Source of the DNA: a virus
Length of the DNA: 64,000 bases
Direction: 5' to 3' (one strand)
IMG/VR virus record: IMGVR_UViG_3300028883_000037
Span: 38,486 to 102,485 of that record
Shown: piece after piece, positions 19,302 through 62,152 of the stretch
How positions within the stretch are numbered: the first letter of the stretch is position 1
Layout of the letters: each line of letters begins with the position of its first letter
Translations under genes and position numbers: made by a program
The notes under the pieces: model-generated
Told to the model about the DNA's origin: nothing
Databases searched by the model: none
What the model saw: the letters and a program-made list of their open reading frames with translations, nothing else

Positions 19302-19395
19302 AATATGCCTCCTAACGCATGTCTCCTGATCGCACTTATATCGCCATATAGAATCGCGTAAATTAATTATGACACGGTATGGTAAAAAGTTAATG

Positions 19396-21066: not shown

Positions 21067-21793
21067 AATTATCCCTAATAACAGAAAGAAAAGACAAAAA
21101 CTCAGAATCAGACCTACGCTTCTTAGCCCTATTCAAGGCTCTAAGAACCAACCTCACATTACCAATAACATGACCAACATCATTATCAACCCTATCAACA
21201 GACAAAGACAAACAAGGATGTCTATAACAACACATCCTAATACCAGACAACGTACATCGTCCACCCTGTTTATCAAACAAATCCAATAAAAAATCCGTCG
21301 TCAAATCAGAATCCTCACCACGCATAACATTCCTTCTTAAAGAAGAAACGAAATCTCTAGAAACACAATCATCAGGAACAAACAAATCAGAATTAATCAA
21401 ACAATCAACCAAAAACAATAAATCCTCAGTAGAACCCGTATTACGAGCCAAATTCAAACCCATACAAATTAATTGAATATTACCAATAATATGACCAACA
21501 TCATTATCAATCCTATCAATAGAAACAGAAAACAAAGAACCATCATATACAAGCGGGGTATTAGAGACACAACACCGACCGTTATTCTTATGAAATAATT
21601 CTAGAACATATTCTCTATTAATAGAGAAATCTCTGCCTTTCTTACGATCCTCAAATTTAGCCGTACCAAGACATCTAGTAATATAATTATTCAAAGAAGT
21701 TTTATATCTATTAGAATCCCTATAAATCTGAGAAGCATTACGCCGTGATCTACTTTTCTTTACATAACGTCTATTTCGTTCTTTCCTGTCCAT
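21053..21793 (-). CDS. double HNH-type endonuclease
   Basis: 246 residues containing two copies of one domain: LFHKNNGRCCVSNTPL...SIDRIDNDVGHIIGNIQLI at about 67-112 and LFDKQGGRCTLSG...SVDRVDNDVGHVIGNVRLV at about 172-220. This is the phage HNH pattern (DRID..xGH..GN..L) with an associated Cys. The N terminus is very basic. Such proteins are usually free-standing homing nucleases; tandem copies might make a single-chain dimer. It opens the cassette with the two methyltransferase fusions and overlaps the first of them. Confidence 0.75.
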   Translation of the reverse strand: MDRKERNRRYVKKSRSRRNASQIYRDSNRYKTSLNNYITRCLGTAKFEDRKKGRDFSINREYVLELFHKNNGRCCVSNTPLVYDGSLFSVSIDRIDNDVGHIIGNIQLICMGLNLARNTGSTEDLLFLVDCLINSDLFVPDDCVSRDFVSSLRRNVMRGEDSDLTTDFLLDLFDKQGGRCTLSGIRMCCYRHPCLSLSVDRVDNDVGHVIGNVRLVLRALNRAKKRRSDSEFLSFLSVIRDNYESR

Positions 21794-24327: not shown

Positions 24328-26136
24328 TTAAGAATTAATTCTTAATTCTTTAAGCACCTCGTTCACCAACGCACACTCACGTAAACGACGCAAATCCCGC
24401 TTAGGCTTAGACTTAAGACGAGGACGTCTCCTATTGTCTTGGGACTCCATAAGACGAAGCTGAGCAGTCAAAACAGAAGGCTCAGCCACAGCATCAAAAG
24501 TTATAATCGAATATCCAGGTTGAACCTCATAACACTCCTCATCGCCCTCTCTAACAAGGTCCATATCACCAACACCACGAGAGCTGATTCCAACCGGGAT
24601 CTTCTTCTCAAACATATAAGCCAATTGTGCGCCATGCGGAGCACGAGCATCATTAAGGATCTCAGATTCACCATATACAGTCTTGCCATCCATCCACAAT
24701 TTTGTTATTAGATGGCATATCTTATCCAAATGAATCTTCGAGTCACAATTACCAGTCCAGAACGAACAACCATTCTGCTCCATATAAAAATTGCCATGCT
24801 CAGTAGTCAAACACCAAATCTTGCCATCATACTGAGATGACCCTATCTGCAAAAAACGATCATCAAGATGGATACCAGTAGTATGAGACAAAGTCAACTG
24901 ATGAAGTGGCTTCTTATTCTCAGCCTTAATTATATGACCAGCAAACTCATAATATTCATTAGTCGCAATCATCGTCCTATAACAACAATGACCAGCTTTG
25001 ACCCAACACTCATGAAGATCATTAATCAACTTTTCAGACACACTAAAAACATTAGAACGACCATGTTTCTGTCTGCCATCACCAAGCTGGAACCAATACA
25101 CTAACTCCTCAAGATATTTCCCATCCAATTGCTTAACATCTTCAGGAATAAACTTAGAATACTTATCTCCAAGTTTTTCCAAATAAGTAGCTAATCGTCT
25201 ATCAAAAGCTCTAAAGCCACGATCAGTCTCTACCCAACTCTTACCAGGAAGGACCTTCTCAAGAAGACCCCTAATCTGATCCTTGTAATCATCTTTAATC
25301 TGACTAATTTCAACCCTATAACTTCTAAGGTTCTTATCCGTCGCTGTAGAATCCCTATGAACACCACCCTCAGCAAGATACAGGCCAAGAAAAGCTGTAA
25401 AGACCTCAGTCGGGATTTGTAGAGGTTCGGACTCGTGTGCATTGGGAGAATCTACGCCAGGAATAATGTAAACTTCCTCATCCTTCCCAATCCATTCTGC
25501 TGTTCTTGGTATACGATGTTTGTTGTATTGTTTACGGTTTTTATAGATGTTATCTGCGGTTGTTTCTAGTTGCTCTTGTACGTGATTCCCATCAGAACGA
25601 GTTACTGTAAGCACCTTGTGTGGTGCTGTGAATTTGGAATCAATATGTCTTCCTTTGAAATGATATACCGTACCACTATAATCTTCGTCAATTACGGCAT
25701 GTACCTTAGAAGGGATCATCTGTCCATTAACTCTGGAATAGACATAATCTCCTTCTTTGATATCATTATAGTCTTTCCATCCAGATGTAGTAAGGACACG
25801 AATCGGCCCATGATCTAAAGTCAGACATGGATGATCCAATTCGCCCAAAACCCTACGCTCATTAACAGGCTTCTGGAGAGACTTCACAGCCTCACGCATA
25901 ACATCCATAGGATAAATGCGCCCATTCTGATTCTTCTCATCAGCAACCTGATAAATCCCCGTCACCTTCATGACGGGGGTCGTCTTAGTCCTGCCATCCA
26001 CATCCTCTTTGATGGTTCCCTTCTTCATATCAACGATCTCTAATTTCCTAGCATCGTTGATCATCTTATAACCATTGGGAATTATACCATTACAGGCTAA
26101 ATCCCGTACCTCGGAGATGGTGTAAAGCTTACGCAT
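24328..26136 (-). CDS. prohead protease (gp21-like) with intein
   Basis: 602 codons. Without the intein the protein is about 242 residues, near the T4 gp21 size. The host halves meet at GELDHP | CDSKIHLDKICHLI, the active-site His region of this serine protease family; SSRGVGDMDL after the intein includes the catalytic Ser. It processes scaffold and capsid proteins inside the prohead. Splicing would be needed to rebuild the His region, so unspliced precursor should be inactive. It lies 11 bases from the acidic gene upstream. Confidence 0.85.
   Translation of the reverse strand: MRKLYTISEVRDLACNGIIPNGYKMINDARKLEIVDMKKGTIKEDVDGRTKTTPVMKVTGIYQVADEKNQNGRIYPMDVMREAVKSLQKPVNERRVLGELDHPCLTLDHGPIRVLTTSGWKDYNDIKEGDYVYSRVNGQMIPSKVHAVIDEDYSGTVYHFKGRHIDSKFTAPHKVLTVTRSDGNHVQEQLETTADNIYKNRKQYNKHRIPRTAEWIGKDEEVYIIPGVDSPNAHESEPLQIPTEVFTAFLGLYLAEGGVHRDSTATDKNLRSYRVEISQIKDDYKDQIRGLLEKVLPGKSWVETDRGFRAFDRRLATYLEKLGDKYSKFIPEDVKQLDGKYLEELVYWFQLGDGRQKHGRSNVFSVSEKLINDLHECWVKAGHCCYRTMIATNEYYEFAGHIIKAENKKPLHQLTLSHTTGIHLDDRFLQIGSSQYDGKIWCLTTEHGNFYMEQNGCSFWTGNCDSKIHLDKICHLITKLWMDGKTVYGESEILNDARAPHGAQLAYMFEKKIPVGISSRGVGDMDLVREGDEECYEVQPGYSIITFDAVAEPSVLTAQLRLMESQDNRRRPRLKSKPKRDLRRLRECALVNEVLKELRINS
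24748..25827 (-). mobile_element. intein in prohead protease, with LAGLIDADG nuclease
   Basis: 360 residues (104-463 of the precursor). It starts with Cys (CLTLDHGPIRVLTTSGW, block A), has FTAPHKVLTV as block B with the conserved His, and ends QNGCSFWTGN before Cys+1. The two LAGLIDADG motifs, AFLGLYLAEG and LVYWFQLGDG, keep acidic residues, so the homing nuclease may be active. The penultimate residue is Gly, where most inteins have His. Confidence 0.9.
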
Positions 26137-29240: not shown

Positions 29241-32200
29241 TCACTCTGTGGCATAATCAGAGGTGTATTCCTCGACACCCTCGGCAATGGTCCTAGTCAC
29301 CGGTTGAGACATAACAAAGGAATCATCCATTCTCTTAAGAGCAAGCAAATAATCTTCCTTAGCCTCCTCGATGACCTTGGTATCAACACTAACAGGACCA
29401 ATAGACCCCTTCTCAATACCATCAAATTCATTCTTATTAAGGAAGGACTCAACAGACAAACCATAATCCTTTTCCGAATTCGTCTGTTCCTGTATCTTCT
29501 GAGCCTCATAGATAGACTTCATAGTCTCATTTAGAAGCTCCTTCTCATCCTCATCGAGATCCTCTTCCTTGATATCCGGCTCCTTCAAAGCATTATCGCT
29601 GTTAGCCTTCAGAGATAATATTTCATCAGGAGTAAGATCTGTAAATCTCTCAATAATCCATTCTGGAGGAAACCACCCAAGGTCCTTCAAATTACCCATA
29701 ATATTAGACCTGGTATTCCACGTCTCGATACGATACAGCTCATCTATAGCTGAGGCAGCCGTCATATACAGGTCAAACTCACGCATATCGCTCACATCAT
29801 GATTGCGAAGAGCTAGATGCACTAGACAAATCTTCTTAAGACCCAAAACCACTTCACGTTGAATCCACTGAACACTCTTAGCGAACTCAGGAGAAACAGA
29901 AGACAAAGACTTGCCATCAGATTCGGAAGGATCGCCAATACCAACACGGCTAAATGGAATCTTCAAACCAGAAACCATCTTCTTCTTGAAATATTCGATA
30001 TCAGCAATCTTATCCAAATTCTCAGCACCAGGCAGCGTGTCTATGGACGGCCCGGTCCCATCGGGACGCTTTGGCATCCAGAAATCATCTTCCTGTATTA
30101 ACGGATTCCAACGTTCATTAATCTCCCCAGTACCAGGATCTACAAACCTATGCTTCTTCATCTGTCTAGCAAGAAGCTGGATATATTGGGGTACTTGGTG
30201 CGGAGGGATCTGGCCAATTGGAATATTAAAAATTCTCTTTTCAGGAGCGCGGGTCTGATGCGTATAAATTCCGTTATAAATGACATTATGAACGTCATTC
30301 TCGACTGTTACATCATAAACCAGATCTTCTCCGATTTCTTCTACTCCGAGAATTCGTTCGTGTTCTGGTAGTTCTTCTTTTGTAAAATAAAGGACCCACG
30401 ACTCTGTATCTGGCATTGTTCTATTGGTTTTCTTATCTATAATATGTCCACCATCTCGTTTACGATGTGATATTAGGCCAGCAGACCAACCCATTCTATC
30501 AATAAGTTCTTTGAAGTCTTCGACAAGTTTTTCATTACAACATTCTATTGTATGCCCCTCAGTTATGCCACCTTTGAAATATCTGCTATTTCCATCCGCG
30601 TCTAAATAACCATCAATAAATGCAATTTGTATTTTACGTGGTGATCTGTAGACCCAAGATGGTATTCTCTTGTTTTCCGCTCCTTGTATGAAGCCATTAA
30701 TCAACATAAAATCGACAAGATGTTTGGAATAGACGTAATAAGATCCTAGTCTATAATCTTCATCCTGACCAAATGATACTTCCGTAACTATTTTCTCGAA
30801 CAATTGTTTATATTGTTCGTTTATTTCACGGTCATCACCTAGGGCAAAACCAACCTGTTTAATTCGTCCCCTGGTGCTTACGTAACCGTCCCCTATCATG
30901 AAACCAAACCATTTTGCAAAATCCTCATCAGCAACTAATGGAACATTATATTGCCGACAAATTCGCTGAGGAAAATTATAACACCAACCTTTCATATATT
31001 CGAGATTTTGTTTAATATTAATTTCTTGTAAAATAGATTCGGCTAAATCCTTCTCAATATAGGCATGCTCGCTTAAAAAAGCTTTTATTGTGGTATTCGA
31101 GTCCTTCCCTATAGAACAATTTACAGGTTCACTTAGTCTAGCATAAATCGGAACATCCGGGTGTTCTAATTTTATTAATTCTTCGTTTTCTATTCGTGGC
31201 AATAAGAACCTATGACAATAATGCTTAGCACAAGTATTTTCTAGAGTTTTTAAATCTTGTGTATCAACATATTCTAATTTATCATGATAAAGTACACCAT
31301 CTTTCTTATATGGCGATACAACAAGAATAGGATGAGTCGCATTCGTGAATATCTCGCGATGTCGTGAAAATACACGATAAATTTTATGTCTTCCATTACA
31401 AACACAGTTAATGATTTTTGTTGGTTTTTGCTCTATATCCCGATCTAAACAAAAAGCTGTATCGCCGACCTCAATATCTCTAACATGCTTATAACCATCT
31501 GGTGTAGAAACCCTTGTATCTCCACGAACACATACCCTGTAGATGAGGGCTGCATCTTCCATAAGGCGCAACCTCTTATAATCTTTCCGACCTCCATCAA
31601 GAATAGAATTATGAACTACAGCACCATTTGCTACGAAATTATGATAATTGGATTCGACTCCGATATCAAACACTTGCTTATTATCTCTTTTTTCTATTCT
31701 GCTGATACCCTCTACAACAATATTGTCCTTCTCTGGGACTATTATCATATCCCCATGAGACAATTCATTTACTTGCTTATAGACAAGATTATTCCCTTGG
31801 TAAGTCATAACAGGATGATTGGATGTAAGATCTAGTCTCCTGCACGATGTGTGGATGCTATAGGTCTGCTTATACCCATTATCCACAAGATCTATAACTC
31901 TTGTAGGTACATTGTGCATACCATCAAAACTATAGACAATCTCCCCACTACGAATTTCCTCAATCCTCTTTTGCCCATTAGGTGTGTCAACCAGAGTGCC
32001 CTCAATACAACACTTACCATACGGTTCATAAATATTCTCCAAACTGGTCAGACGCATATGCAGCACTTGCCAAGGGTACAAGAATTCAGGCTCGCCGGCA
32101 ACAGCGTTTTGATAATAAAAACCGACTAAATCATCATATTTAGTATGAATTCTAGTAAAATTATAAATGTTCATGAAACGATACCCAGAAACACCATTAC

Positions 32201-32642
32201 GGTGTTTCGTAGGCACAATCTCTGCAGCAAAATCACCAAACTTGCACAAATATCTGATAATAGGACGAATTTCCCTATCAATCATCAGAGTATTATACAG
32301 AAAATCTTCAATTACCTTCTTGACTTTCTTGTTCTTTGCCTTAACCAACACACTGTGCTTGCGTTCTGGGTCAACAAGACTAGACTCATCTGCATAAATA
32401 TCCAAAGCTAGAGAAATTTCCCCAGTCTGGTCCATCATATCATAATCTTTGTAGCGCTCTAACCTGTTAATCTGTAGGTTGGTCTGTTCCAACAAAGCAG
32501 ACTGCCTACCTACATTTAATAATTGACCACCCTGAGTGACCCTCTCAACATCATCTTGGTCGGAATATAGGTTGTCCACCCGATATAGGTTGGCTTGCTT
32601 GAAGTAAGCACGTATCCGATCCCAAAGCTGAAAACTAGGCAT
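29241..32642 (-). CDS. portal protein (gp20-like) with two inteins
   Basis: 1133 codons; the mature protein would be about 572 residues, against about 520 in T4. Extein parts read as a T4-type portal: ENIYEPYGK | SILDGGRKDYKRLRLMEDA...LIYRV | TRAPEKRIFNIPIGQ, then FWMPKRPDGTGP and the long helical C end. The portal forms the dodecameric DNA channel at one head vertex. Both inteins sit within 25 extein residues of each other in the most conserved stretch. Both must splice for a working portal. Confidence 0.9.
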   Translation of the reverse strand: MPSFQLWDRIRAYFKQANLYRVDNLYSDQDDVERVTQGGQLLNVGRQSALLEQTNLQINRLERYKDYDMMDQTGEISLALDIYADESSLVDPERKHSVLVKAKNKKVKKVIEDFLYNTLMIDREIRPIIRYLCKFGDFAAEIVPTKHRNGVSGYRFMNIYNFTRIHTKYDDLVGFYYQNAVAGEPEFLYPWQVLHMRLTSLENIYEPYGKCCIEGTLVDTPNGQKRIEEIRSGEIVYSFDGMHNVPTRVIDLVDNGYKQTYSIHTSCRRLDLTSNHPVMTYQGNNLVYKQVNELSHGDMIIVPEKDNIVVEGISRIEKRDNKQVFDIGVESNYHNFVANGAVVHNSILDGGRKDYKRLRLMEDAALIYRVCVRGDTRVSTPDGYKHVRDIEVGDTAFCLDRDIEQKPTKIINCVCNGRHKIYRVFSRHREIFTNATHPILVVSPYKKDGVLYHDKLEYVDTQDLKTLENTCAKHYCHRFLLPRIENEELIKLEHPDVPIYARLSEPVNCSIGKDSNTTIKAFLSEHAYIEKDLAESILQEINIKQNLEYMKGWCYNFPQRICRQYNVPLVADEDFAKWFGFMIGDGYVSTRGRIKQVGFALGDDREINEQYKQLFEKIVTEVSFGQDEDYRLGSYYVYSKHLVDFMLINGFIQGAENKRIPSWVYRSPRKIQIAFIDGYLDADGNSRYFKGGITEGHTIECCNEKLVEDFKELIDRMGWSAGLISHRKRDGGHIIDKKTNRTMPDTESWVLYFTKEELPEHERILGVEEIGEDLVYDVTVENDVHNVIYNGIYTHQTRAPEKRIFNIPIGQIPPHQVPQYIQLLARQMKKHRFVDPGTGEINERWNPLIQEDDFWMPKRPDGTGPSIDTLPGAENLDKIADIEYFKKKMVSGLKIPFSRVGIGDPSESDGKSLSSVSPEFAKSVQWIQREVVLGLKKICLVHLALRNHDVSDMREFDLYMTAASAIDELYRIETWNTRSNIMGNLKDLGWFPPEWIIERFTDLTPDEILSLKANSDNALKEPDIKEEDLDEDEKELLNETMKSIYEAQKIQEQTNSEKDYGLSVESFLNKNEFDGIEKGSIGPVSVDTKVIEEAKEDYLLALKRMDDSFVMSQPVTRTIAEGVEEYTSDYATE
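30255..31532 (-). mobile_element. intein 2 in portal gene, LAGLIDADG type, ends in Gln
   Basis: 426 residues (371-796), from CVRGDTRVSTPDG to YNGIYTHQ before Thr+1. Block B is FTNATHPILVV. Nuclease motifs WFGFMIGDGY and AFIDGYLDADG keep both acidic residues. The last residue is Gln, where Asn is usual; a minority of known inteins use Gln and still splice. Confidence 0.9.
31608..32012 (-). mobile_element. mini-intein 1 in portal gene
   Basis: 135 residues (211-345), from CCIEGTLVDTPNG to ANGAVVHN before Ser+1. Block B is LTSNHPVMT. There is no room for a nuclease domain, so this copy cannot home by itself. Confidence 0.9.
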
Positions 32643-32670: not shown

Positions 32671-33966
32671 TTATTTCAATTTAAGGTGAAACTTGGACAA
32701 AGGAGGCGTTTTGTACTTTCTATAACCATAAGTACTCACAAATTCGGACTCAACCATATGAGCAGAACGAGCCTGATTATACAACGTCTTCTTATGCAAC
32801 TTCCAACCATCCTCATTAACATAGAAATATGAAGGGGCAGTATAACCATCAAAAACCCAATTCGAGGCCCTATAGATCGTACCAGCATGTCCAGCAGAAG
32901 GATCTGAAAAACTAAACAAATAACGAATATTAGAAGGAACCAACTTGACACACCTACTTAGAAAATAAGAAGCAAGATTCTTATTCCTAACAAAAGGAAC
33001 AATAACAAACCTACTCAACTCCATAGCTTCATCCTTCCTGCAATACGATACATAAACCTCCCTACGGATAGGATGAGAAAAAACAGCACCACAAACCAAC
33101 TTATCCCCAATATAACCACCAACATAAAAGCCCCTTCTGCCAAGAGAACCCATATAATGATAATTGCACATCAAATATTGCATTTCATCTTCATTAGCAA
33201 TTTTAATACTTAAATCTTTAAGATCAATTTTCTCTGACTCTTTATAAAAACCAACCCACCTCTTCAACAAAGCTTGCATCTTATTAAAATCAAATAACTG
33301 ATGCTCCCAGACCGTCTTTAACTCATAACCATCGAGCGTAGAAACATACGAACTCTTAGCCTCATCTTTCCTGGCAACATCGGGTCTGCGGTGCACCCAG
33401 TGGCTATTGACTTCTAACAGCAAATCTGTCTCGTCACGATGAATAAGGAAATCGAAAGTATATGGACCCAAAACAACTTGATGCTTATACTCAATATTCA
33501 GAGAATCAAGAATCTCCTGCATCCTTTTCTCGGTATTTGGAGTACTAGTGAGTTGCTTCACTAAGGATACAGCGTGAGCTTTTCTATAATTTTCATCCAT
33601 CCAAGCCTTTTTAGCAGCCTCGGAACACTTCCTCCTGGACTCCACATCCCGTACTGACTCAGAGTGTTTACTGCGGTATTTCTCGTCTTTCCATAATTCT
33701 TGGGACGATTTCTTTCTCTTATCGACATAATCTTTCTTTTCCCATATTTTCTTTTGTATCGTGGAGTGTTTCTTTTTTATGTCTGGTTTATTACAGGCAC
33801 ATTTATAACATAACCAGTCAATATTATTGTTTCTTATGCGTGATTTAACTCTGATGGTTAGGTCTCTGGTCGCATTACAATTATCACATTTGGCTACTAT
33901 TTTAGGACGTTTTTGGGACAGGTCTACGTTGCCGAATTTTTGTTTGGTGAGATTCCAGTCGATCAT
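32671..33966 (-). CDS. zinc ribbon / Vsr-like nuclease / Mom-like DNA modification fusion
   Basis: 431 residues. Cys27, 30, 53 and 56 form a zinc ribbon. Residues 60-140 carry NUMOD-like repeats (SSQELWKDEKYRSKHSES). Residues 145-225 are a Vsr/EDxHD-type nuclease: YTFDFLIH, LLLEVNSHW, then TVWEHQL. Residues 255-425 match the GNAT-like Mom family, which alters adenine in phage DNA: NYHYMGSLG, MELSRFVIVPF, then GTIYRASNWVFDG. The gene lies between portal and terminase, with a 4-base overlap with the terminase stop region. It looks like a free-standing homing gene that also modifies DNA. A paralogue is at 49554-51290. Confidence 0.75.
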   Translation of the reverse strand: MIDWNLTKQKFGNVDLSQKRPKIVAKCDNCNATRDLTIRVKSRIRNNNIDWLCYKCACNKPDIKKKHSTIQKKIWEKKDYVDKRKKSSQELWKDEKYRSKHSESVRDVESRRKCSEAAKKAWMDENYRKAHAVSLVKQLTSTPNTEKRMQEILDSLNIEYKHQVVLGPYTFDFLIHRDETDLLLEVNSHWVHRRPDVARKDEAKSSYVSTLDGYELKTVWEHQLFDFNKMQALLKRWVGFYKESEKIDLKDLSIKIANEDEMQYLMCNYHYMGSLGRRGFYVGGYIGDKLVCGAVFSHPIRREVYVSYCRKDEAMELSRFVIVPFVRNKNLASYFLSRCVKLVPSNIRYLFSFSDPSAGHAGTIYRASNWVFDGYTAPSYFYVNEDGWKLHKKTLYNQARSAHMVESEFVSTYGYRKYKTPPLSKFHLKLK

Positions 33967-36900
33967 CTCATTATGGGTCCGCCGTTATCTAATCGTATGG
34001 TTTTGATTTTCTGTGTTATCATGAATCTAGGATCGACCAATTTAGAATTAGCTGGCAATCCTCCGAGGGTCATAATATATTCGTTGAATTCTTGTTCTGG
34101 GGTCTTATGTTCTGATAGTTCTGGGCATAAAATAACAGGAGCTAGAGCGTGTATTCCACCAGAATCGTTCAGTTGGCCTATTTGCCGTGCTGCGTCAGGT
34201 GGGTCTATTACGTCGTTGTTTAGGCTGGGCACATTGTGCACAGGTATTAGTGAGGCGTGATCCGATATCACAGCCTCCGGAAGTCCAACCAGGGACATCC
34301 CCAGAGCCATTACGATATCACTGTGATTTCCTGGACCTGGAACGTGTCCAATTTTATTTCCACCTAGGTGTATAAAGATGTGCAACTGGTCTACGAGTTC
34401 TGCGCTGTATACTCTAACTCCATCCTCTACTCCGATGTTGTCTAATATTGCTTTTACTAGCGTTGGTTTGTGTGCAGGTGAAGTTGGAAAACCGACTTTG
34501 GCTGTTCTTTGTCCTTTGGCGGTCTTCATGTGGTAGACGTTGGAATATCCGAAGTTATTGTAGAATTGCTGGCATACGGGTATCCCGAGTCCTGTTCTTT
34601 CTGGGACCACAAAGGCATTGTTGAAGTATCTGGCCAAATAATCCATCATACACATTAGGAAATACGGCTGAACTTGCATGTTCAATTCTGCTACTTGTTC
34701 ACAGTCATTACAGTCGATTACTACTATTGCTGATAGGTCGTTATCTTCTCCGCTGGAGATATCGACGCCCATACTGTAGGTGTGGCCTGGTGCGCCTGGC
34801 CGTATTATTTTGCCTTGTTCTATGAGGTCTGGCTGCGGTTTGATTGGACGCTTCCAGATTTTGAGTTTACCATCGAAGTCCAGTTCTAGTTCTTCGCTTG
34901 TGGTTGGGTGTATATAGGGGACTTTTCCTACTACGAAGTATTTCCGTCCCCCGTTGTTATCCAGGTCATCTACTAGGTATAACAGTTGATTTCTTGATAA
35001 TACTGTGTTTCCGGTTCCTATGAATTCTGCTAGGATTTCTTGTCTAAAGAGGTGTGCTTCTCCTCTTTGCTGTAGTTGTCTGTATTGTTCTTCTAGCCAG
35101 GGTGAGTAGTATGGTCCCCATTTTTCTTTTTCTTCTTTTGTTCTGCATTTCCGGATTCCGTCTGTGGGGCATATTCTTCTTTTTTGACCTGTTTTTTGAT
35201 CCTCGAATTCTATGGACCAGTCCATGTCCCACCAATTGACTATGATGGGGTTAAAGTCGTTTCTTTTCTTTTCAGCGTCACTCCATGTTACTTCATACCA
35301 ATTCCCTACTCCGTTACATGTACTAATAACTATCACAGATCCACCATGTTGCAGTGTCTTATGACTTATAAAACCGTTTGCTATGTAGGTATTGTTTTCG
35401 GGCACGCTAAGATCTAGAGTTTTTGCTTTACTTTCTCTTATAGACTTAACTTTCATAGGCACTAGGCCATTACTTAGTATTCTACCTAGAGCAGTATCTT
35501 TGTTATCATCACAGAGCAGGTCTATTGCTCTGTTATATGGTATTCTATTATTCCTTTGATAGTATCTGGTTATAGATTTTTTATTTGATTTTCTACAAAA
35601 TTCTTCAACTGCTTTATGTCGTATTGATAATCCGTGTTCCTGTTTAGGCGCATCTAGTATTACGTTCTTTCTATCTGATATGAATCCTATTTCGTTTATA
35701 AATCTTATATAATTTCTACGATCTATTGTTGATAATCTGTATGATTTCTTGCTGTTGGTAAATCCTCCTCTTCCTTCAGATGTTCTAGTTATAATGCCCA
35801 ATGAGAACAGAGATGATCTCACTTGGTCTATAAGAACCTTCGATACAGACGAACAAGTAATTCTTTTATTTGATGACGAGCCATCGGCTTCAAAATAACC
35901 TCTCAAAAATGCACATATGATTTCTGGGCCACTTGACAAAATCGCCTTTGGGATTCTAGCGTGATATACATCTTCCTTAATCAATCCATGCCTAAACATC
36001 CAGTCTACAAATGGGGCATTATAGACTTTGATATCAACCGTATGACACGCATATTCGGTTTTTGGATTTAGTCCGATATTCTTTAGTTTAATTATTAATT
36101 TTTCATGTAGCTGTTTGTCTGTAGGACAGCAATGCGGTTTTATTCTTTTCGGTCTAGAGACGGAGGAACTTCCGTCTCCGATATAATAACCTATAATCTC
36201 AGCAAGATCAACGGTCATTATATCTGGCAATTTTTGTGGCTTATGATGTACACAAGATGGACAAATATATTTTTCTTTCTTCGATTTCCGTAAAGTTATA
36301 ACCTTGAGAACAAATTTTTTGTAGCACTTATGACATATTACCTCAGTATGATCTCTGTTCTTAAGGTTCCCAAGATTAATTAGGTCACATTCCGGCTCTA
36401 CAAAAACATGTGGCTTTCCTCTACACGTATTTGGCAATAAGCAAACATAATCATCCTGTTTTAATTCTCTTAATTCTTTCCAGACATATTCTCCTTGTTC
36501 GTTAAATATTCTAAGTTTATGGTGTGGTGTTGCTTCAAATTCATAACCCAATTCGGTCTCAATATGTAAAGTATTGGTATATCCACTATTGAAGATAGCA
36601 GAACATTGCTTATCTCCAGAGTCCGTAGGGAGATCGATATCTAGATTCCCAAATTCCCCAATTCCAGTATTGTCATTAAGCATCTCCTTTATCTCTATCA
36701 AACCATCGTTTGTAGAGATAATTGAATCGTCAGAAACACAAGGCCAGCCTGCTGCCCACATCTCATCCATGTGCGGCATAAATCCAGCTTCATCAATAAT
36801 ATTCAAAGATGAAGAATTAGATCTCAGTGTTTCTTTAGAGGATGTCAGACTACTGATCTGTGATCCATTCGGAAACACGATCTCATGTTCATTGTATGTG

Positions 36901-38267
36901 GGTGGTGGATCGCCGTAGATCTGATGGAATTCTTTAGGCAGGTTATCATAGACGAATTTGATGTTCTTATCTAGGAAGGCTTTGGCGTCTCTGTCTCTTT
37001 TTGAGACGATTAAGATGGTTTTATGGGAGAAGAACATTCCATTCCATAGGGCATATGCCCCGGATAATGTGCTTATGCCGCAATTATGAACAACGGCTCC
37101 ATCTACGATATAATTATGAGTTTCTGGAATCGTAAGATCATAAACTTCACTTTCTGTATCTACTGGTTTAACAGATTTAATCTGACCCTTAATTCTATTA
37201 AATATAAATCCTTTTGTGATTTCTTTTCTTGGTTTTTTGCCAAATATTCCTATATATTTTGTAAATAATTCAAAATCTCTACCACCTATAATCCTTAATT
37301 TAGATATGGTTCCCTTACCAGGATAAATTTTAGAATTTATCCCGAATCTACTAAGAAGTTGTTTTAATTGATATAATATTATAACAGATTCCTGAGCTAT
37401 TCCAGCTTCATTACAATCCTTACCGCTATACCACCCATCTCCAGAGAACATCCTGTTTATCAAAGTAGCTACTGAGTCATTGTTCCAAGAAAAAACTTCT
37501 GCTGGTATTCGTTTTTGCTTGCCTGTTTGTTTGTCTATTCCAAGAGAACGCAACCATTTTCTAGCTTCAGAATGATTTGTCTGCATCCTATAATTATTGC
37601 TATCTGGAGCAAACGAACTAGAATGTGGCCTGATCTTCAGACGAACACCAAATTTTAATTCAAAATGCTTCTGGAATTCCAAAAGATATTTCCATCTCTT
37701 ATTTGTAAAATTAATCCATCTACCATAACATCCGTCCGTGATCAAATACCCCAACAAAATGGCATCGGACGTCATCCGGTTATTATAACAGCAGATGTCC
37801 GATACCTCTACAAGTACATCGTTTAAAGACAGATCAATTGCTTTTACCCAACCTTTGCTTGTTAAGAATTGATGATCGCCCGTACATATCGACCTATGGC
37901 CAGTTTTAGTCCTAACTTCGTAAAGATTCGTAGAAATTCCATTATTATGAACATCAGATACTTTCTGCACATCGAGACGGTTGTCTTTGAGAGTATATAC
38001 GATATCACCCTTCCTAATTTCTTCGATAGGACAAGGTCCGTTTGGCGTCCATACCATACTCCCTTTCACGAAGCACTGCCTCGTTTTTCTGTAAACGTTA
38101 AATCTGTATTTTTTGAAATCTTCTAAGCTCTTCTTTTGGTAATCAAATAATCCAAATGGTAAAATACCAGCAACCGGGTGTTTGATCTTACAAAAATTCT
38201 CTATAAAATACATTGGGCTTCTCTGGCAACGCCGGAGAAGATCGGACATCAACTTTTTTCTATTCAT
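33963..38267 (-). CDS. terminase large subunit (gp17-like) with two inteins
   Basis: 1434 codons; about 642 residues without the inteins. ATPase parts: VYRKTRQ | CGISTLSGAYALW (a Walker A variant whose basic residue lies before the loop, as in several phage terminases), LNIIDEAGF (Walker B), AGWP | TLQHGG then ISTCNG (coupling motif). Nuclease part: MGVDISSGEDND, VVPERTGLGI and GNHSDIVMALG give the RNase H-like acidic residues. It cuts and pumps DNA through the portal. Intein 1 sits in the Walker A loop and intein 2 next to the coupling motif, so splicing is required for function. Confidence 0.9.
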   Translation of the reverse strand: MNRKKLMSDLLRRCQRSPMYFIENFCKIKHPVAGILPFGLFDYQKKSLEDFKKYRFNVYRKTRQCFVKGSMVWTPNGPCPIEEIRKGDIVYTLKDNRLDVQKVSDVHNNGISTNLYEVRTKTGHRSICTGDHQFLTSKGWVKAIDLSLNDVLVEVSDICCYNNRMTSDAILLGYLITDGCYGRWINFTNKRWKYLLEFQKHFELKFGVRLKIRPHSSSFAPDSNNYRMQTNHSEARKWLRSLGIDKQTGKQKRIPAEVFSWNNDSVATLINRMFSGDGWYSGKDCNEAGIAQESVIILYQLKQLLSRFGINSKIYPGKGTISKLRIIGGRDFELFTKYIGIFGKKPRKEITKGFIFNRIKGQIKSVKPVDTESEVYDLTIPETHNYIVDGAVVHNCGISTLSGAYALWNGMFFSHKTILIVSKRDRDAKAFLDKNIKFVYDNLPKEFHQIYGDPPPTYNEHEIVFPNGSQISSLTSSKETLRSNSSSLNIIDEAGFMPHMDEMWAAGWPCVSDDSIISTNDGLIEIKEMLNDNTGIGEFGNLDIDLPTDSGDKQCSAIFNSGYTNTLHIETELGYEFEATPHHKLRIFNEQGEYVWKELRELKQDDYVCLLPNTCRGKPHVFVEPECDLINLGNLKNRDHTEVICHKCYKKFVLKVITLRKSKKEKYICPSCVHHKPQKLPDIMTVDLAEIIGYYIGDGSSSVSRPKRIKPHCCPTDKQLHEKLIIKLKNIGLNPKTEYACHTVDIKVYNAPFVDWMFRHGLIKEDVYHARIPKAILSSGPEIICAFLRGYFEADGSSSNKRITCSSVSKVLIDQVRSSLFSLGIITRTSEGRGGFTNSKKSYRLSTIDRRNYIRFINEIGFISDRKNVILDAPKQEHGLSIRHKAVEEFCRKSNKKSITRYYQRNNRIPYNRAIDLLCDDNKDTALGRILSNGLVPMKVKSIRESKAKTLDLSVPENNTYIANGFISHKTLQHGGSVIVISTCNGVGNWYEVTWSDAEKKRNDFNPIIVNWWDMDWSIEFEDQKTGQKRRICPTDGIRKCRTKEEKEKWGPYYSPWLEEQYRQLQQRGEAHLFRQEILAEFIGTGNTVLSRNQLLYLVDDLDNNGGRKYFVVGKVPYIHPTTSEELELDFDGKLKIWKRPIKPQPDLIEQGKIIRPGAPGHTYSMGVDISSGEDNDLSAIVVIDCNDCEQVAELNMQVQPYFLMCMMDYLARYFNNAFVVPERTGLGIPVCQQFYNNFGYSNVYHMKTAKGQRTAKVGFPTSPAHKPTLVKAILDNIGVEDGVRVYSAELVDQLHIFIHLGGNKIGHVPGPGNHSDIVMALGMSLVGLPEAVISDHASLIPVHNVPSLNNDVIDPPDAARQIGQLNDSGGIHALAPVILCPELSEHKTPEQEFNEYIMTLGGLPANSKLVDPRFMITQKIKTIRLDNGGPIMR
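35358..36740 (-). mobile_element. intein 2 in terminase, terminal residue Lys
   Basis: 461 residues (510-970), from CVSDDSIISTNDG to IANGFISHK before Thr+1. Block B is FEATPHHKLRI. It carries an internal zinc ribbon (CHKC...CPSC) and LAGLIDADG motifs IIGYYIGDG and FLRGYFEADG. The final codon is AAG (Lys, plus 35358-35360) where Asn is expected, and Asn cyclisation normally releases the intein. Confidence 0.85.
37083..38075 (-). mobile_element. intein 1 in terminase (Walker A site)
   Basis: 331 residues (65-395), from CFVKGSMVWTPNG to VDGAVVHN before Cys+1. Block B is ICTGDHQFLT. LAGLIDADG motifs LLGYLITDGCY and LINRMFSGDG keep the acidic residues. Confidence 0.9.
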
Positions 38268-49369: not shown

Positions 49370-49563
49370 TGACAAAATTTGAGAAAAAACTAGACAAAAT
49401 ACTATCAGAAATGCTCGGGACGCATATAAAAGCACCAACACGAGCATTCCGAAGAGCAGGACTAACACTCAGAATAGGCAAAAGATTCGACGGACCGCCA
49501 GAAACACGATACAAGAAAATGATGACAACAAATTTCAAGAACCAGATGACATTCTACATATAA
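49369..49563 (+). CDS. small basic hypothetical protein, 64 aa
   Basis: A basic sequence (APTRAFRRAGLTLRIGKR) on the plus strand, divergent from the CYTH gene. No clear ribosome site: the ATG directly follows an AT-rich stretch. A/C-rich third positions like other plus genes support it a little. It overlaps the end of the Mom fusion by 10 bases. Confidence 0.35.
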   Translation: MTKFEKKLDKILSEMLGTHIKAPTRAFRRAGLTLRIGKRFDGPPETRYKKMMTTNFKNQMTFYI

Positions 49564-51290
49564 TATATAAACCTTTTCTTCTCATACCCCCATACCTTGT
49601 GATATCCGAACTTCTCACAATATTCTGATTCAGGCATTCTCATCTTGGATGCCTTATTCCACAGTGTTTTCTTATGGCAGACATACCCGAGATGATCTAC
49701 ATACCAGTAACTAGGTTTTACTATGCCGTCCAATCTCCAGTTAGATGCTTTATATATAGTTCCATGATGATTAAAAGTTAGATCTGCAAATGTAATTAAA
49801 CATTTTATATCTGAGCGGTAAGATTTTATGGCTTTAATAGATCGTGAAATCATAAAACTAGCAAAATTTTTCTTCTGATAAGAAGGATGTATACACAACC
49901 TTGTAAGTTCCAACATTTCTTTTGGTTTAAATCCTTGCTTATCCGCAGATTCTTTGCGAGTTAAGGGACCATAACAAACGACTCCGATTAAAATCTCGTC
50001 ACAATAGAAGCCAATATAGGTCCCTCTTTTACCTAATCTACCAGAATAATGATATTTTCCGACGAACAAAGTAGCTTCGTCCACATCAACTGGCCTAATT
50101 ACAACATCTTTAAATTCAAAATCTGTCTTCTTTACTTCCCCAATATTCAACCAATATCGGATTGTGTCCATGACCCTATCTTGGTTATCAAATTCATGCT
50201 CCCATATATACTTGATATCATACTTTGGATGATACCTTTTGGTGAATGTGGCTTTAGACCGATCTTTTGAAACAGTATGTGGTAAAGAATGCCAATAATC
50301 TCCATTTATATCAATCAATAAAGGCCTATGTATACCAAGTGATTTTTGTGGATCTATCCTACAATCCCAAATATAATAACCAACTTTGCACATCTCTGAT
50401 GTATCGTCGTGATATTCTATCCCAAGATCTGCTAACATGCTGTAGAATACCTTCTGGATCAAACTTGTTCTAGGTTGGTGTAACCTGATTATTGCCATTT
50501 TCTCCCTAAATGATGATGAATTAATGATCTCTAACATTTTGTCTCTGTATTCCGGATCTTGCCATCTCTTTTTAGATGCCAGAGAAGCTTTTTTCCTCAT
50601 AACATCATCACGCCACATTTCCCGTGATTTTTTAGCAATTCGTTCCCATGGTATCGTCTCTTTCCATTTACGGACCCATTCTGGATCAGAAAATAAAAGT
50701 TTATTTCGATCAGAACTTAATTTAGCCATCTTCTTTTTATATTCTGGATTAAGCCAGGGCATCTTACCATATTCTGACATCTGTTTACGAAAATCATCAG
50801 TAACCAGAAAATCTCTCCAATTTCCACGCATATTCCTCCAGAAAGTTGAAGAAGATTCACTCAACTTCTTCTTAAATTCCGGAGTATAGATGCCATCAAA
50901 TTTCCCTTCTTTATGTGCTCTGGAACCAGAGCAAGACTGACACGAAAAACGACCATCATTTCTACGTTTATTAGCTAAATAATTTCTGTATTTAAGAGTA
51001 ATTTTACTCTTGCAAACACTACATTCTCTGGTGATAATATCAGAATGCAAAGTCCTCCCAGAATCCTTGGCCTTCTTGGCCAACTTCCTACCAATTGCTT
51101 TTCCATTTTCTTTGACTTTACAAGAATGACAAACATATTCTTTTCTTGATAAAGTATTGACATAATATCTTATTCGCATTACCTTAATCTCTCGTATAGA
51201 ACCACATCTCACACAACCCAAAGGCACTTTATCATGACTGGTAAGGTTCTCTATCGACTTTATCTCAAATATTCCTTTTGATGTCAACAT
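49554..51290 (-). CDS. double zinc ribbon / Vsr-like nuclease / Mom-like modification fusion
   Basis: 578 residues, a larger paralogue of 32671-33966. Two zinc ribbons (Cys26/29/54/57 and Cys90/93/117/120) precede NUMOD-like repeats (for example KKRWQDPEYRDKM). Residues 305-368 are the nuclease: YIWDCRID, LLIDINGDYWHS and YIWEHEF. Residues 400-575 are the Mom-like GNAT domain: GKYHYSGRLG, LELTRLCIHP, GTIYKASNWRLDG. The gene sits between sheath and CYTH genes, after the sheath terminator. Its composition is not skewed like its neighbours, consistent with later arrival. Confidence 0.75.
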   Translation of the reverse strand: MLTSKGIFEIKSIENLTSHDKVPLGCVRCGSIREIKVMRIRYYVNTLSRKEYVCHSCKVKENGKAIGRKLAKKAKDSGRTLHSDIITRECSVCKSKITLKYRNYLANKRRNDGRFSCQSCSGSRAHKEGKFDGIYTPEFKKKLSESSSTFWRNMRGNWRDFLVTDDFRKQMSEYGKMPWLNPEYKKKMAKLSSDRNKLLFSDPEWVRKWKETIPWERIAKKSREMWRDDVMRKKASLASKKRWQDPEYRDKMLEIINSSSFREKMAIIRLHQPRTSLIQKVFYSMLADLGIEYHDDTSEMCKVGYYIWDCRIDPQKSLGIHRPLLIDINGDYWHSLPHTVSKDRSKATFTKRYHPKYDIKYIWEHEFDNQDRVMDTIRYWLNIGEVKKTDFEFKDVVIRPVDVDEATLFVGKYHYSGRLGKRGTYIGFYCDEILIGVVCYGPLTRKESADKQGFKPKEMLELTRLCIHPSYQKKNFASFMISRSIKAIKSYRSDIKCLITFADLTFNHHGTIYKASNWRLDGIVKPSYWYVDHLGYVCHKKTLWNKASKMRMPESEYCEKFGYHKVWGYEKKRFIYYM

Positions 51291-51406: not shown

Positions 51407-54262
51407 CTAGGCAGACGTAACAACACCACCAGCCTGCAAAACTTCCTCACTGCTAAAGCTAGCCTCTGTACGGAGAACTACCAAATTAAGCTGGATGAAC
51501 TCAGCAGCGCGCGTCGGCTTAAGGAAGTAAGCCACGTGTAACTCGTTCCTATCTATTCTCTCCGGAGTATTATTGCGCTCATCACAAACCACCAAGAACG
51601 CAGTCAACCCACGGCGAGCCTGAATATCAGCCAAGAAAGGATTACTCGCACTAACCACCCTGGCCCGGGTAATCGCATCATTCGGCTCAAAAACGAACTC
51701 ACGCAAGAAATTAGTAGCATTCTTCTTAATGTAAATCAACAACATCCGAACATTCACACGATCCAACGCAGACTGACGACGCTGCAAAGTCCTCTGACCC
51801 CAAACCGTAATCCCATCCTGCGGGAAATTCACAATCGGGTTCACAGCATTACCACTACCGTACATCAAATCCCGCTCGCCCTGAGTCAAATCAACCTCAA
51901 CATCAAGCGGAGTAAGAAGACGACCACGAACAATACCAGCAGGCGCAAACCAAGTCTCAGCAACATTCTCAGTACGAGCAAAAACACTGCTCACATGCCC
52001 ACTCGGAGGAATGAAAATATTCCCACCATTGAACTGGTCAAACACCTTCAACCACGGATGATACAAAGCACCATAACTGGAATTAATCGTCTGAGTCAAA
52101 TCACTGAACAAAATACCATTATGCCAATCAACAACCTGCTGAGCGCGAAGACCAAACGGAGAATCCACAATGTACAAACAATCTCCACGACCCTCACAAA
52201 GCTGCAACCCCTGGCCAATCACAGCACCAGAAGTAAAGCCAGGAATCACCAGAACACTAATATCATAAACCTCCGGATTGGAGAAAGCAAAAATCCCCGT
52301 CTCCAAAGAAGGATTACCAATCACAGCACGATCAAGCTCAGAAGAATAAGCCGGATCAGTCGGAATACCATCAGCCTGACCACTCATCGCAGTACGGAAG
52401 AACGAACCAGGAGTCCGAATCTCGAAACTAGAATCATTAGGATCATTATTCAAGAACGAAGGTCTCGGAATCCACTGAACGTACGAATTACCATTCTCAC
52501 CACCGTATCGAGAACCTTCATTAATCACATTACCAATGTAACGATCATCAGTAGGATTAAAAGAAATATCCTCGATCCGATCTAGAACCTGAAGATTCCC
52601 ATCCTCAATCAGCAAGACGAACCGGCCAGCAACATCACCAGCAGCCTCGCCAGCCGAGAAAATATCCAAGCTATACAACAGATTATCAACCCAAGTACCC
52701 GGAGTCTTAGCAACAAGCCAGCCTACAATATTCTGGAAGTAAGCCGAATCCAACGCACACTCATCACTAACCGGATCAACCTCACAAGAAAGAGGAGAAC
52801 TTGGAGTCGTAGCACCAGCATCCGGAAGAGTCGTACGAGCATCAAAGTAAACCCGATAAGCTTGCTTATACGGGAACTGGATACCCAACGTCTCAGCAAA
52901 ACGAAGAGTTTTGAAATTAGAGGAAGTAGCCTGTAATTCTAATTGATCAAATTGATGACCAACCGAAGTCTCAACCACTACCTGCACTTCACCACCAGGA
53001 GTTATGATCGAGTAAACATCGAAGTATCTGTCCCCACCAGAAATACCACCAAGATCAATAGCGTTAGCTACCTGCTCAGCAGTTTGGGACAGACCAACCG
53101 GGATACTGAACTCGATATCCTCGGTTTCTTCTTGGCCTACCACCTTGATCCTAACTCGGTTGTTCTCGGTTGTGATGTCGTAATACTCGGTTATTGTCGA
53201 GATGAGGTTGGACCTGGGTATGTCGTAAGCATAGAGCGTTTGTCCAACTTCCAGAGAAAATCCTTCTGTACTCACCAGCTGGATGCTCTCACCTGCCGTA
53301 TCGGTCCGGAAGCACACTGTGTTGTCGGATTGTGCTACCGCGATATATGGTTCGCTGCTGGGGATGAGGGCGTTGATTGCGTCTGCGAAGTCCTCTGCAG
53401 AGTCAAAGGAGGTTCCATCAGCGATTGTGTATTCGTTTATTGTAGACGAGTCTTGTCTGTCTACGTTGAATGAGAAGATTCTGTTGTCGGGACGTACGGT
53501 GAAGGTGAAGGTGTCGTTTGCCCCGATCGGTACGGTTCCGGTGACGACTACGGTGAAGACGAGGCCGTCTCCGATGTCGATTGGTTCACTGGTTCCGAGG
53601 GTTCCGCTTTCTACGAGGGTGTCTACTAGGACGGTTATTCCGTCGGAGTTTCGGATTACTTCGAAGTCGGCTCCGTCAAGCAGGGATCCTCCGGTTTCGG
53701 TGGGATCGCTGGTGAGGATGATGGTGTAACTGTCGTCGATTGCACCTTCGTAGGCTGTGGGGTCTGCGAAGACGAGCGTGGCGGATGCTGGTCCTTCTGT
53801 GGTGTTGATTTCTATGTCGTTATAGTCGATGTTGCCGACGTCTGCTTCATGGAAGTTCAGGGCGTTGTCTTCGTCGATGATTCTGGTGCAGATTTTGCCG
53901 AAGTCGATGCCGGTGAATACGGGTACTCTGCCCCATCCTGATTCTCTGGCTCCGCTGTTGTCGATGCAAATGTCGGAAAGTTCTTCCGGTTGTCCTTCTT
54001 CGCATTCGACTCCTACTCGGAGTATCCAGGCACGGGAGCCCTCTTCGAAGTATGCTAGGGCTGCGTAGCCCATAAAGCTTTCGGGAAAGGGTTGACCGAA
54101 CGTATCGATATATTGCTGTGAGTTCGATACGAATGTGGGCGTTTGTAATGGCCCTCTGTTAGCTGTTCCTATAAACGCAGGGGTTAGCGCTCCTGTCGCT
54201 GTCGGAATTACGCTGAGGTCAATTTCCCGTGTAAAGACGCCAGGCGAGAGGTATACTGCCAT
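51407..54262 (-). CDS. tail sheath protein (gp18-like), extended
   Basis: 951 residues from the ATG at 54262 (CTAGGAGAATTGATC upstream); T4 gp18 has about 660. The N-terminal VYLSPGVFTREIDLSV followed by AFIGTANRGP is the typical sheath start, and the C-terminal region (TRARVVSASNPFLADIQARRG) the inner-domain handshake part. The extra length falls in the middle as beta-rich, probably surface-exposed inserts. Coding third positions change from A/C in the 5' part to G/T in the 3' part near 53100. It contracts to drive the tube into the host. Confidence 0.85.
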   Translation of the reverse strand: MAVYLSPGVFTREIDLSVIPTATGALTPAFIGTANRGPLQTPTFVSNSQQYIDTFGQPFPESFMGYAALAYFEEGSRAWILRVGVECEEGQPEELSDICIDNSGARESGWGRVPVFTGIDFGKICTRIIDEDNALNFHEADVGNIDYNDIEINTTEGPASATLVFADPTAYEGAIDDSYTIILTSDPTETGGSLLDGADFEVIRNSDGITVLVDTLVESGTLGTSEPIDIGDGLVFTVVVTGTVPIGANDTFTFTVRPDNRIFSFNVDRQDSSTINEYTIADGTSFDSAEDFADAINALIPSSEPYIAVAQSDNTVCFRTDTAGESIQLVSTEGFSLEVGQTLYAYDIPRSNLISTITEYYDITTENNRVRIKVVGQEETEDIEFSIPVGLSQTAEQVANAIDLGGISGGDRYFDVYSIITPGGEVQVVVETSVGHQFDQLELQATSSNFKTLRFAETLGIQFPYKQAYRVYFDARTTLPDAGATTPSSPLSCEVDPVSDECALDSAYFQNIVGWLVAKTPGTWVDNLLYSLDIFSAGEAAGDVAGRFVLLIEDGNLQVLDRIEDISFNPTDDRYIGNVINEGSRYGGENGNSYVQWIPRPSFLNNDPNDSSFEIRTPGSFFRTAMSGQADGIPTDPAYSSELDRAVIGNPSLETGIFAFSNPEVYDISVLVIPGFTSGAVIGQGLQLCEGRGDCLYIVDSPFGLRAQQVVDWHNGILFSDLTQTINSSYGALYHPWLKVFDQFNGGNIFIPPSGHVSSVFARTENVAETWFAPAGIVRGRLLTPLDVEVDLTQGERDLMYGSGNAVNPIVNFPQDGITVWGQRTLQRRQSALDRVNVRMLLIYIKKNATNFLREFVFEPNDAITRARVVSASNPFLADIQARRGLTAFLVVCDERNNTPERIDRNELHVAYFLKPTRAAEFIQLNLVVLRTEASFSSEEVLQAGGVVTSA

Positions 54263-54302
54263 GATCAATTCTCCTAGTTCGGCATCAAACCGCCGTTAAT
54301 CA

Positions 54303-61021: not shown

Positions 61022-62152
61022 CTAATGAAGAATGGGACCCAAAGGTTCAGAATGCAAAATTGCGTCCTGAACTGTCTTTTCTTTCTCCTGTTGTCCCTCG
61101 GTCCTCATCTGTTCACCATTCAGACTCAAAGAACCACCGCCAGGAGCAGGTATATTACCGAACTTGCTCCTGACATTTCCAATCATAATCTTAGCTTCTG
61201 CAATCAGAGCTCTCTTAGTAAGTTCTCTAGCCCAAGGGCTTCTGAAATGGTTAACAACCGGGATGTATTCTATAACTACAGGAAAACTGCCACGTGGTGT
61301 TGGAAACAACCTAATCTTATTATCTCCTTTAACTTCCCATTGTCCCTCGGTACCCAATATTCGCTGACTGAATTTGCGATACGATAACAACATGTGGTAA
61401 TCAAGGAGTAAATTCTGAATGCCAGTAACGTTTCCTATATTGAACAGGAAACTATTATGTACGACAAAATCGTTTGCAATTAAATTATGAAATTCTTTGG
61501 TTTCAAAATCATATGTCTCAAATTCACCAACTTCTACAATTGATGATATTTTAGCTAAGATTACAGTATCTGATTTCCTCATATAAAGGCGCTGATCAAC
61601 TGTGAGGTCCTTTGCTAACTTCCAACCATTTTCACTCATAAACTTATGATTAAATGATGCAACAACAGTAGAATCATCTGCGGTTATCTCTAAACATTTC
61701 TTCATACCTGATTCTTTTCTACTGATAATCTCATCTTCTACAATATTGCCGTTACTATATGACAATATCTTAGACCCTACCTGTAGGTCTCTCGCTTGTA
61801 TTTTCCCATCATACAACGAAATAAGACAATCACCGCGCAGACATTCAGCTCCAAATATGTCACCAATACGCGTGGTCGCCGGATCCCACGAAACATTCTG
61901 AACCCAATAAGCGTCCTGGGGCAGATTATAACCATTAACCAAAGGCTGAGTATTAAAGTACGCATACTTCTGTTCAGAAGGAAAGTAAGTAGCTATAAAA
62001 TCACAAGTGGATCTTATAGCCTGTTCCAATTGCGGTTCTGTAATCTCATTAGCAATTACAGGGTGGCCAAGTGTCGATAATACCTCGAATTTGGTCTCGT
62101 CGTTGTTCTTACGTAGTACAACGGGTAATTTATCAGGACCAATAATAGCCAT
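61022..62152 (-). CDS. neck / head-completion protein (gp13-like) with mini-intein
   Basis: 376 codons; about 246 residues when spliced. The C extein carries LLLDYHMLLSYRKFSQRILG, then the beta strands of TEGQWEVKGDNKIRLFPTP, then a basic helix (KIMIGNVRSKFGNI) and a Gly-rich turn with LSLNGEQM, a pattern common in T4-type neck proteins that seal the filled head. The intein splits DIFGAE | SFLFNIG. Ribosome site AAGGAGGATTTTTGA. Assignment to gp13 specifically is tentative. Confidence 0.6.
   Translation of the reverse strand: MAIIGPDKLPVVLRKNNDETKFEVLSTLGHPVIANEITEPQLEQAIRSTCDFIATYFPSEQKYAYFNTQPLVNGYNLPQDAYWVQNVSWDPATTRIGDIFGAECLRGDCLISLYDGKIQARDLQVGSKILSYSNGNIVEDEIISRKESGMKKCLEITADDSTVVASFNHKFMSENGWKLAKDLTVDQRLYMRKSDTVILAKISSIVEVGEFETYDFETKEFHNLIANDFVVHNSFLFNIGNVTGIQNLLLDYHMLLSYRKFSQRILGTEGQWEVKGDNKIRLFPTPRGSFPVVIEYIPVVNHFRSPWARELTKRALIAEAKIMIGNVRSKFGNIPAPGGGSLSLNGEQMRTEGQQEKEKTVQDAILHSEPLGPILH
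61454..61843 (-). mobile_element. mini-intein in neck protein
   Basis: 130 residues (104-233), from CLRGDCLISLYDG to IANDFVVHN before Ser+1. Block B is VVASFNHKFMS, with Ser where Thr is usual. No nuclease domain. Confidence 0.9.

Follow-up and report, generated by a model that had tools for sequence, protein, structure and literature searches.

The DNA analyzed here, referred to as the window, comprises 64,000 nucleotides of a 102,485-bp virus record and raises the question of what a single gene that joins a Vsr-like nuclease to a Mom-like DNA-modification domain is doing between the terminase and portal genes of a phage, and in particular whether it is a homing gene, a cargo that protects phage DNA, a weapon against rivals or an artefact.

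Position and domain architecture of the fusion gene

From the letters alone this gene, here called W1, had been placed between portal and terminase, and it was found exactly there as an intact open reading frame (ORF; Table 1), the start of which shares the 4 nt ATGA with the end of the terminase gene and which stops 28 bp short of the portal gene. The portal protein of a close relative matches T4-type portals, namely those of Flavobacterium phage immuto, Microcystis phage Mel-JY01 and Rhodothermus RM378, with 26-33% identity. Intein-like insertions were seen in the portal and terminase genes of the window (two each) and in structural-type genes at 24328-26136 and 61022-62152; the portal of one related locus (L004) is free of them.

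Table 1. Fusion genes of the window, their domains and their neighbors (window coordinates; residue numbers refer to W1)
Feature	Position	Strand	Basis
W1 (P0001), EDxHD-Mom fusion gene, 431 aa	32671..33966	-	Intact ORF; Pfam Mom, PADLOC homing endonuclease, PDB 3r3p and 8bv8, AlphaFold pLDDT 92.5
Putative zinc ribbon, residues 25-58 (C27, C30, C53, C56)	33793..33894	-	Cys conserved in about 42-46 of 59 relatives; predicted zinc binding
Helical NUMOD-like repeats, residues 61-138, presumed DNA-binding/targeting	33553..33786	-	Short helices in model; far more variable than nuclease and Mom domains
Vsr-fold EDxHD nuclease, residues 142-239 (E146, D172, H192, D201, K204)	33250..33543	-	3r3p match; conserved residues
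Mom-family GNAT, residues 250-426 (H270, Y271, E316, R319, S333, D355, Y365)	32689..33219	-	PF25680; 8bv8 top Foldseek match; residues mapped on Mu Mom
Terminase large subunit, with inteins; upstream flank of W1 site	33963..38267	-	Homologous terminase ORFs in related loci; identity by sequence reading and synteny
Portal protein, with inteins; downstream flank of W1 site	29241..32642	-	Synteny and homology
W2 (P0002), second EDxHD-Mom fusion gene, 578 aa, downstream of tail sheath gene	49554..51290	-	Pfam Mom E=4.4e-31
Tail sheath protein, upstream flank of W2 site	51407..54268	-	Conserved neighbor in L220-L274 with and without fusion gene; name by sequence reading

W1 is a four-part chain in which a CxxC/CxxC motif and helical repeats precede an EDxHD nuclease of the Vsr fold and a C-terminal Mom-family domain. 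The presence of a Vsr-like nuclease and a Mom-like domain in one chain, the central claim of the sequence-only reading, was borne out by profile, PDB and structure-model matches. That reading had also proposed structure prediction as a check, and the AlphaFold model of W1 (pLDDT 92.5) shows both the Vsr-like and the GNAT/Mom-like fold, with a relative placement of the domains that is uncertain because of a pTM of 0.60. When the model was compared with the PDB by Foldseek, 8bv8 was the best match (2.8e-10), and in a viral structure library the best matches were two-domain proteins named 'endonuclease-like' and 'homing endonuclease'. The profile of the 59 relatives matched 3r3p (3e-13) and 8bv8 (5e-11) in the PDB; its one further match, a weak one, linked the repeat region with a spore germination protein. 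A zinc ribbon is consistent with the cysteine pairs C27xxC30 and C53xxC56, which recur in about 45 of the 59 relatives and may bind zinc, and the run of short helices is likewise consistent with NUMOD-like repeats, although no NUMOD profile matched.

The nuclease domain of W1 matched the catalytic domain of I-Bth0305I (PDB 3r3p), its nearest solved relative, both in a single-sequence phmmer search (E=4e-5) and by Foldseek (2.6e-4, TM-score 0.79 on the target), and the PADLOC homing endonuclease profile matched W1 with E=3e-7. The two enzymes share the fold of the catalytic domain and the aligned positions of catalytic residues; however, the solved structure of I-Bth0305I comprises the catalytic domain only, and the sources searched mention no Mom domain in this enzyme. 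Across 59 distinct aligned fused proteins, which show about 27-52% identity to the window protein and underlie all residue-conservation counts given here, D172, H192, D201 and K204 are invariant, while E146 of the EDxHD motif, the residues of which were assigned from the alignment, is E in 23 and Q in 32 proteins and is also Q in the paralogue at 49554. The very-short-patch repair endonuclease Vsr has the same nuclease fold, but W1 shows no sign of a repair role, and Pfam Vsr (PF03852) gave no match to the window protein at E<=10 and a weak one in 10 of the 59 relatives.

For the C-terminal part, Pfam Mom (PF25680) matched W1 with E=2.4e-19 and 70.2 bits (gathering cut-off 27.1) and was found in each of the 59 relatives when matches with E up to 1 were counted, the Mom-like phrog_1384 matched W1 with E=3.3e-24, and a single-sequence search with W1 reached Mu Mom (PDB 8bv8) at 2e-4. 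W1 shares with the Mom of phage Mu (PF25680, phrog_1384) both the fold and the signature H-Y / E-L-x-R / N-x-x-S / D / G-x-x-Y, and individual residues of Mu Mom could be mapped onto W1 (H58-H270, Y59-Y271, E108-E316, R111-R319, S124-S333, D149-D355 and Y159-Y365). The window protein has the residues common to Mu Mom and stand-alone Moms (H270, Y271, E316, R319, N330, S333, D355, G362 and Y365), and most stand-alone Moms carry the same signature as the W1 clade. Within the fused family H270, Y271, R301, R319, G362, Y365, Y380, Y382, K392 and E406 are invariant in 59 of 59 proteins, S333 is S or T throughout, D355 is D in 58, and the E/D, S/T and D positions of the signature are kept in 55-59. 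The title of 8bv8 names the inactive mutant S124A, and S124 is the residue that aligns with S333. In the few usable close pairs, dN/dS being saturated for most others, ratios of 0.00-0.07 for the Mom and 0.01-0.10 for the nuclease domain indicate purifying selection on both. Mu Mom stands by itself as a protein and has the regulator Com; the Mom of W1, in contrast, forms the C-terminal part of a nuclease and has additional conserved residues (R301, Y380, Y382, K392 and E406), several of which are common to Hef-like proteins. Mom of phage Mu modifies adenines genome-wide and shields phage DNA from host restriction, and the conserved residues suggest that the Mom domain of W1 most likely still modifies adenine in DNA.

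Extent of the family and kinship with Hef-like homing endonucleases

A conserved-motif search detected 80 loci in viral contigs and none among 84,980 bacterial and archaeal species, each represented by one genome, and plasmids gave no match; a bacterial or plasmid origin was rejected on these grounds. Among the ORFs of the loci collected, about 78 distinct intact ones in large viral contigs carry both domains and one is nuclease-only; most Mom-only ORFs run off a contig end or come from other subfamilies. The relatives come from dozens of contigs of independent metagenomes, and there are up to about 8-9 copies per genome, in one 341-kb phage. By the family profile, the nuclease of W2 spans residues 275-383 and its Mom domain residues 394-574; a search with this paralogue alone as query found no relatives.

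Distances between nuclease domains follow those between Mom domains (Mantel r=0.69), whereas the N-terminal region gave r=0.24 and 0.29 against these two, values lowered in part by its poorer alignment. Likewise, four co-resident copies in one 341-kb phage share 55-72% in the nuclease and 59-74% in the Mom domain as against 21-34% in the N-terminal region. These sequence comparisons suggest a conserved cut-and-mark cassette that may be joined to interchangeable targeting regions. In the record of L088, a frame of 1,310 aa (G019:C1:45743-49288) has many tandem copies of the N-terminal helical repeats before nuclease and Mom. In-frame stops occur in several copies, but most of them lie upstream of the N-terminal region or in its most variable start and are not clear lesions; in L212 a stop lies within the nuclease domain.

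Genes for Hef-like homing endonucleases are frequent in jumbo phages and in T4-like ones. One of these enzymes, Hef of T4-like phage U5, cuts nrdB (PMC2988022) and has been described as unlike known homing endonucleases (PMC3322345). The Hef-like set considered here comprises phrog_3339, phrog_559, Hef of phage U5 and homologues from Campylobacter phages, Klebsiella phage RaK2, PA5oct and Caulobacter phage Cr30. The 'homing endonuclease' family phrog_3339 matched W1 across residues 11-393, and tblastn of W2 against Hef-like proteins gave matches over residues 260-567 with E down to 5e-8. Hef-like proteins resemble W1 in that an EDxHD nuclease is followed collinearly by a Mom-like GNAT domain, an order found in those of coliphage N2 and of Vibrio, Acinetobacter, Campylobacter, Klebsiella, Caulobacter, Bacillus and Pseudomonas phages; one Acinetobacter phage record is annotated as 'putative nuclease/acetyltransferase'. 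Their genes also stand alone, like W1, between essential phage genes (nrdA/nrdB, capsid, tail tube, topoisomerase and DNA polymerase genes). However, the Mom-like domain of Hef-like proteins has L, M, F or I for Y271 and G for N330 and varies at D355, whereas the window clade keeps the full signature and has other N-terminal targeting regions; for Hef of coliphage N2 the Mom score is marginal. In the trees all fused Mom-like domains lie apart from stand-alone Moms (99% support), the nuclease tree separates the Hef clade from the window clade (100%), and the Mom tree supports the Hef clade with 100% and the window clade with 68%. Since the two clades separate, the window clade is a sister group, outside Hef in the narrow sense, and the simplest reading of these sequence relationships would be one ancestral nuclease-Mom fusion behind both. 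In our literature search no paper tying Hef to Mom was found, and the literature found assigns no role to the C-terminal half of Hef-like homing endonucleases; from the window clade this half can be recognized as a Mom-family domain, which in that clade has its full signature.

Occupied and empty insertion sites

Our survey of the terminase-portal site took in 80 portal loci. The fusion gene lies in the terminase-portal gap or directly before the portal gene, on the plus strand, in about nine loci (L089, L090, L093, L094, L101, L102, L125, L133 and L149) and before the portal gene on the opposite strand in five (L114 and L116-L119), while terminase and portal genes are directly adjacent (gap under 100 bp) in about 26 of the 80. 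The occupied locus L094 and the empty locus L095 part at the portal ribosome-binding site GAGGAACTAATATG, and their 6,746 bp from there on show 99.97% identity; they are comparable on one side only, as L094 starts inside the fusion gene with its left flank out of view, and the divergence may be an assembly break at a strain polymorphism. In a further pair with 85.5% identity over 4.6 kb, L090 has the fusion gene and L091 is without it at the same place. Just before the portal gene of L091, the stretch KYGYRKIYGAEN at 400-590 is similar to the C terminus of the fusion protein and may be the remnant of a lost copy.

A second site adjoins the tail sheath gene. In L221 the fusion gene lies between the sheath gene and a gene resembling those for uracil-DNA glycosylases, and this site is empty in L220, with flanks that are 73-82% identical. 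Other copies of the fusion gene adjoin major capsid and protease genes. Because occupied and empty forms of both the terminase-portal and the tail-sheath site coexist, the gene behaves as a free-standing homing endonuclease gene, and the homing role suggested by the sequence-only reading is further supported by the multi-copy spread and by the collinear homology to Hef-like homing endonucleases.

Proposed function and rival explanations

In our view W1 is probably a free-standing homing gene of the Hef/EDxHD kind with a Mom domain that is likely to be active, the likeliest use of which would be to mark the carrier's DNA near the gene's own target. The N-terminal Cys-motif and helical-repeat region, which varies between copies, would pick a DNA target near the insertion site. 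By analogy with Hef and I-Bth0305I, the Vsr-fold nuclease would then cut phages without the gene, and recombination repair would copy the gene and flanking DNA into the cut genome. The Mom-family GNAT would most likely modify adenine in DNA and might thereby mark carrier DNA at or near the element's target, the chain sparing marked and cutting unmarked DNA; such marking may be a helpful rather than an essential function. Since there are several copies per phage, each with a complete Mom, an element-specific role of Mom fits better than one shared cargo. It speaks against the proposal as a whole that E146 of the nuclease motif is Q in 32 of the 59 aligned proteins.

The earlier proposal that Mom protects the carrier from its own nuclease was weakened, as a strict requirement, by natural alleles. 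In L005, a 56-bp deletion frameshifts the Mom domain and removes much of it with the nuclease left intact, the gene being otherwise identical to that of L004 (the two phages are 99-99.9% identical), and L213 and L214 are nuclease-only copies with intact catalytic residues. Given these alleles, Mom activity is not strictly needed by the carrier, unless another copy protects in trans. A homing gene can gain immunity simply because its own insertion splits the target. The near-identity of L094 and L095 across the whole portal gene means that any target inside this gene would expose the carrier to its own nuclease as well. This leaves a target that straddles the insertion point, one outside the portal gene, or shielding of the carrier by modification. 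Self-protection by modification is speculative and offered only as a hypothesis, and its fullest version, a homing endonuclease with its own modification-based immunity in which the same targeting region would direct the nuclease to empty sites that bear no mark and Mom to the carrier's DNA, as a mobile single-chain cross between homing and restriction-modification, seems to us rather unlikely. If it were true, the homing nucleases with methyltransferase-like domains at 17274-19412 and 19396-21066 of the same phage would be convergent versions of such immunity.

Several other explanations of the fusion were weighed. The Mom domain may be a generic anti-restriction cargo of a homing endonuclease, modifying many adenines genome-wide against host restriction and giving no protection from the chain's own nuclease, in which case the selfish gene would pay its way because Mom shields the phage genome. 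Mu Mom is known to act in this manner, stand-alone Mom-like genes occur in many phages, and purifying selection and the kept signature of the Mom domain fit as well; however, several complete copies often reside in one genome, where they would be redundant as cargo, and Mom almost always comes joined to the nuclease (78 distinct ORFs have the pair and one has only the nuclease), so that we consider this explanation possible, though short of probable. It is unlikely that the Mom-like domain has lost its enzymatic activity and serves as a DNA-binding or scaffolding part of a Hef-like homing endonuclease: Hef-like relatives lost part of the signature, so the domain can persist without full Mom chemistry, and a Mom-truncated allele exists, but a full signature that is (near-)invariant in 59 divergent proteins is hard to explain without catalysis.

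The architecture of W1, with nuclease and modification domain in one chain, is also that of Type IIC restriction-modification enzymes, and marker exclusion is known for free-standing homing endonucleases, those of T4 excluding the alleles of rival phages. Both facts could be taken to favor a phage-borne weapon that cuts unmarked DNA of rival phages or hosts, with homing as a by-product. However, Type IIC enzymes carry a methyltransferase, whereas W1 has a Mom-type GNAT and the phage distribution of a homing gene; its relatives occupy gaps beside phage structural genes, none is found in the bacterial and archaeal species genomes or plasmids searched, unlike restriction-modification systems, and the homology to Hef points to homing, all of which makes a weapon highly unlikely. 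The chance that two unrelated genes were fused by a sequencing or frame error, for which nothing speaks beyond the unusual architecture, is negligible: dozens of contigs, drawn from independent metagenomes, contain this fusion at 27-52% identity, the genome that carries W1 has a second copy, and Hef-like proteins occur in isolate phages, and these many independent homologues rule out a single-gene artefact or frame error. For the favored reading as a homing gene with a marking domain, the full Mom signature makes DNA marking by selfish phage nucleases testable, be it for self-immunity or for evading host restriction, and the family would offer many ready-made enzymes for cutting and adenine modification with different targeting regions.

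Nuclease-like or modification-like domains also occur in other ORFs of the window and elsewhere. The ORF at 19396-21066 (minus strand), near the major capsid gene and with relatives in L186-L194, joins a LAGLIDADG homing nuclease to a methyltransferase-like domain (WFDPCAGWGNR...TSPPF); Pfam LAGLIDADG was found in seven of eight members, and Foldseek matched meganucleases and SAM methyltransferases. In the ORF at 17274-19412 (minus strand; relatives in L184 and L196), HTH repeats and a TnsA/REase-like segment share one chain with a methyltransferase-like domain (DPCMGWGGR...TSPPYDD), for which profile support is weak. In Synechococcus phage DSL-LC03 (L183), a 'type II restriction endonuclease' gene (24-581) overlaps a stand-alone Mom-like gene (544-1194), possibly as a split nuclease plus Mom pair. 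By reading, the ORF at 512-1714 (minus strand) has a kinase-like domain followed by a SAM-methyltransferase-like domain, and that at 21053-21793 (minus strand), beside the major capsid gene, resembles an HNH-type endonuclease with two similar halves.
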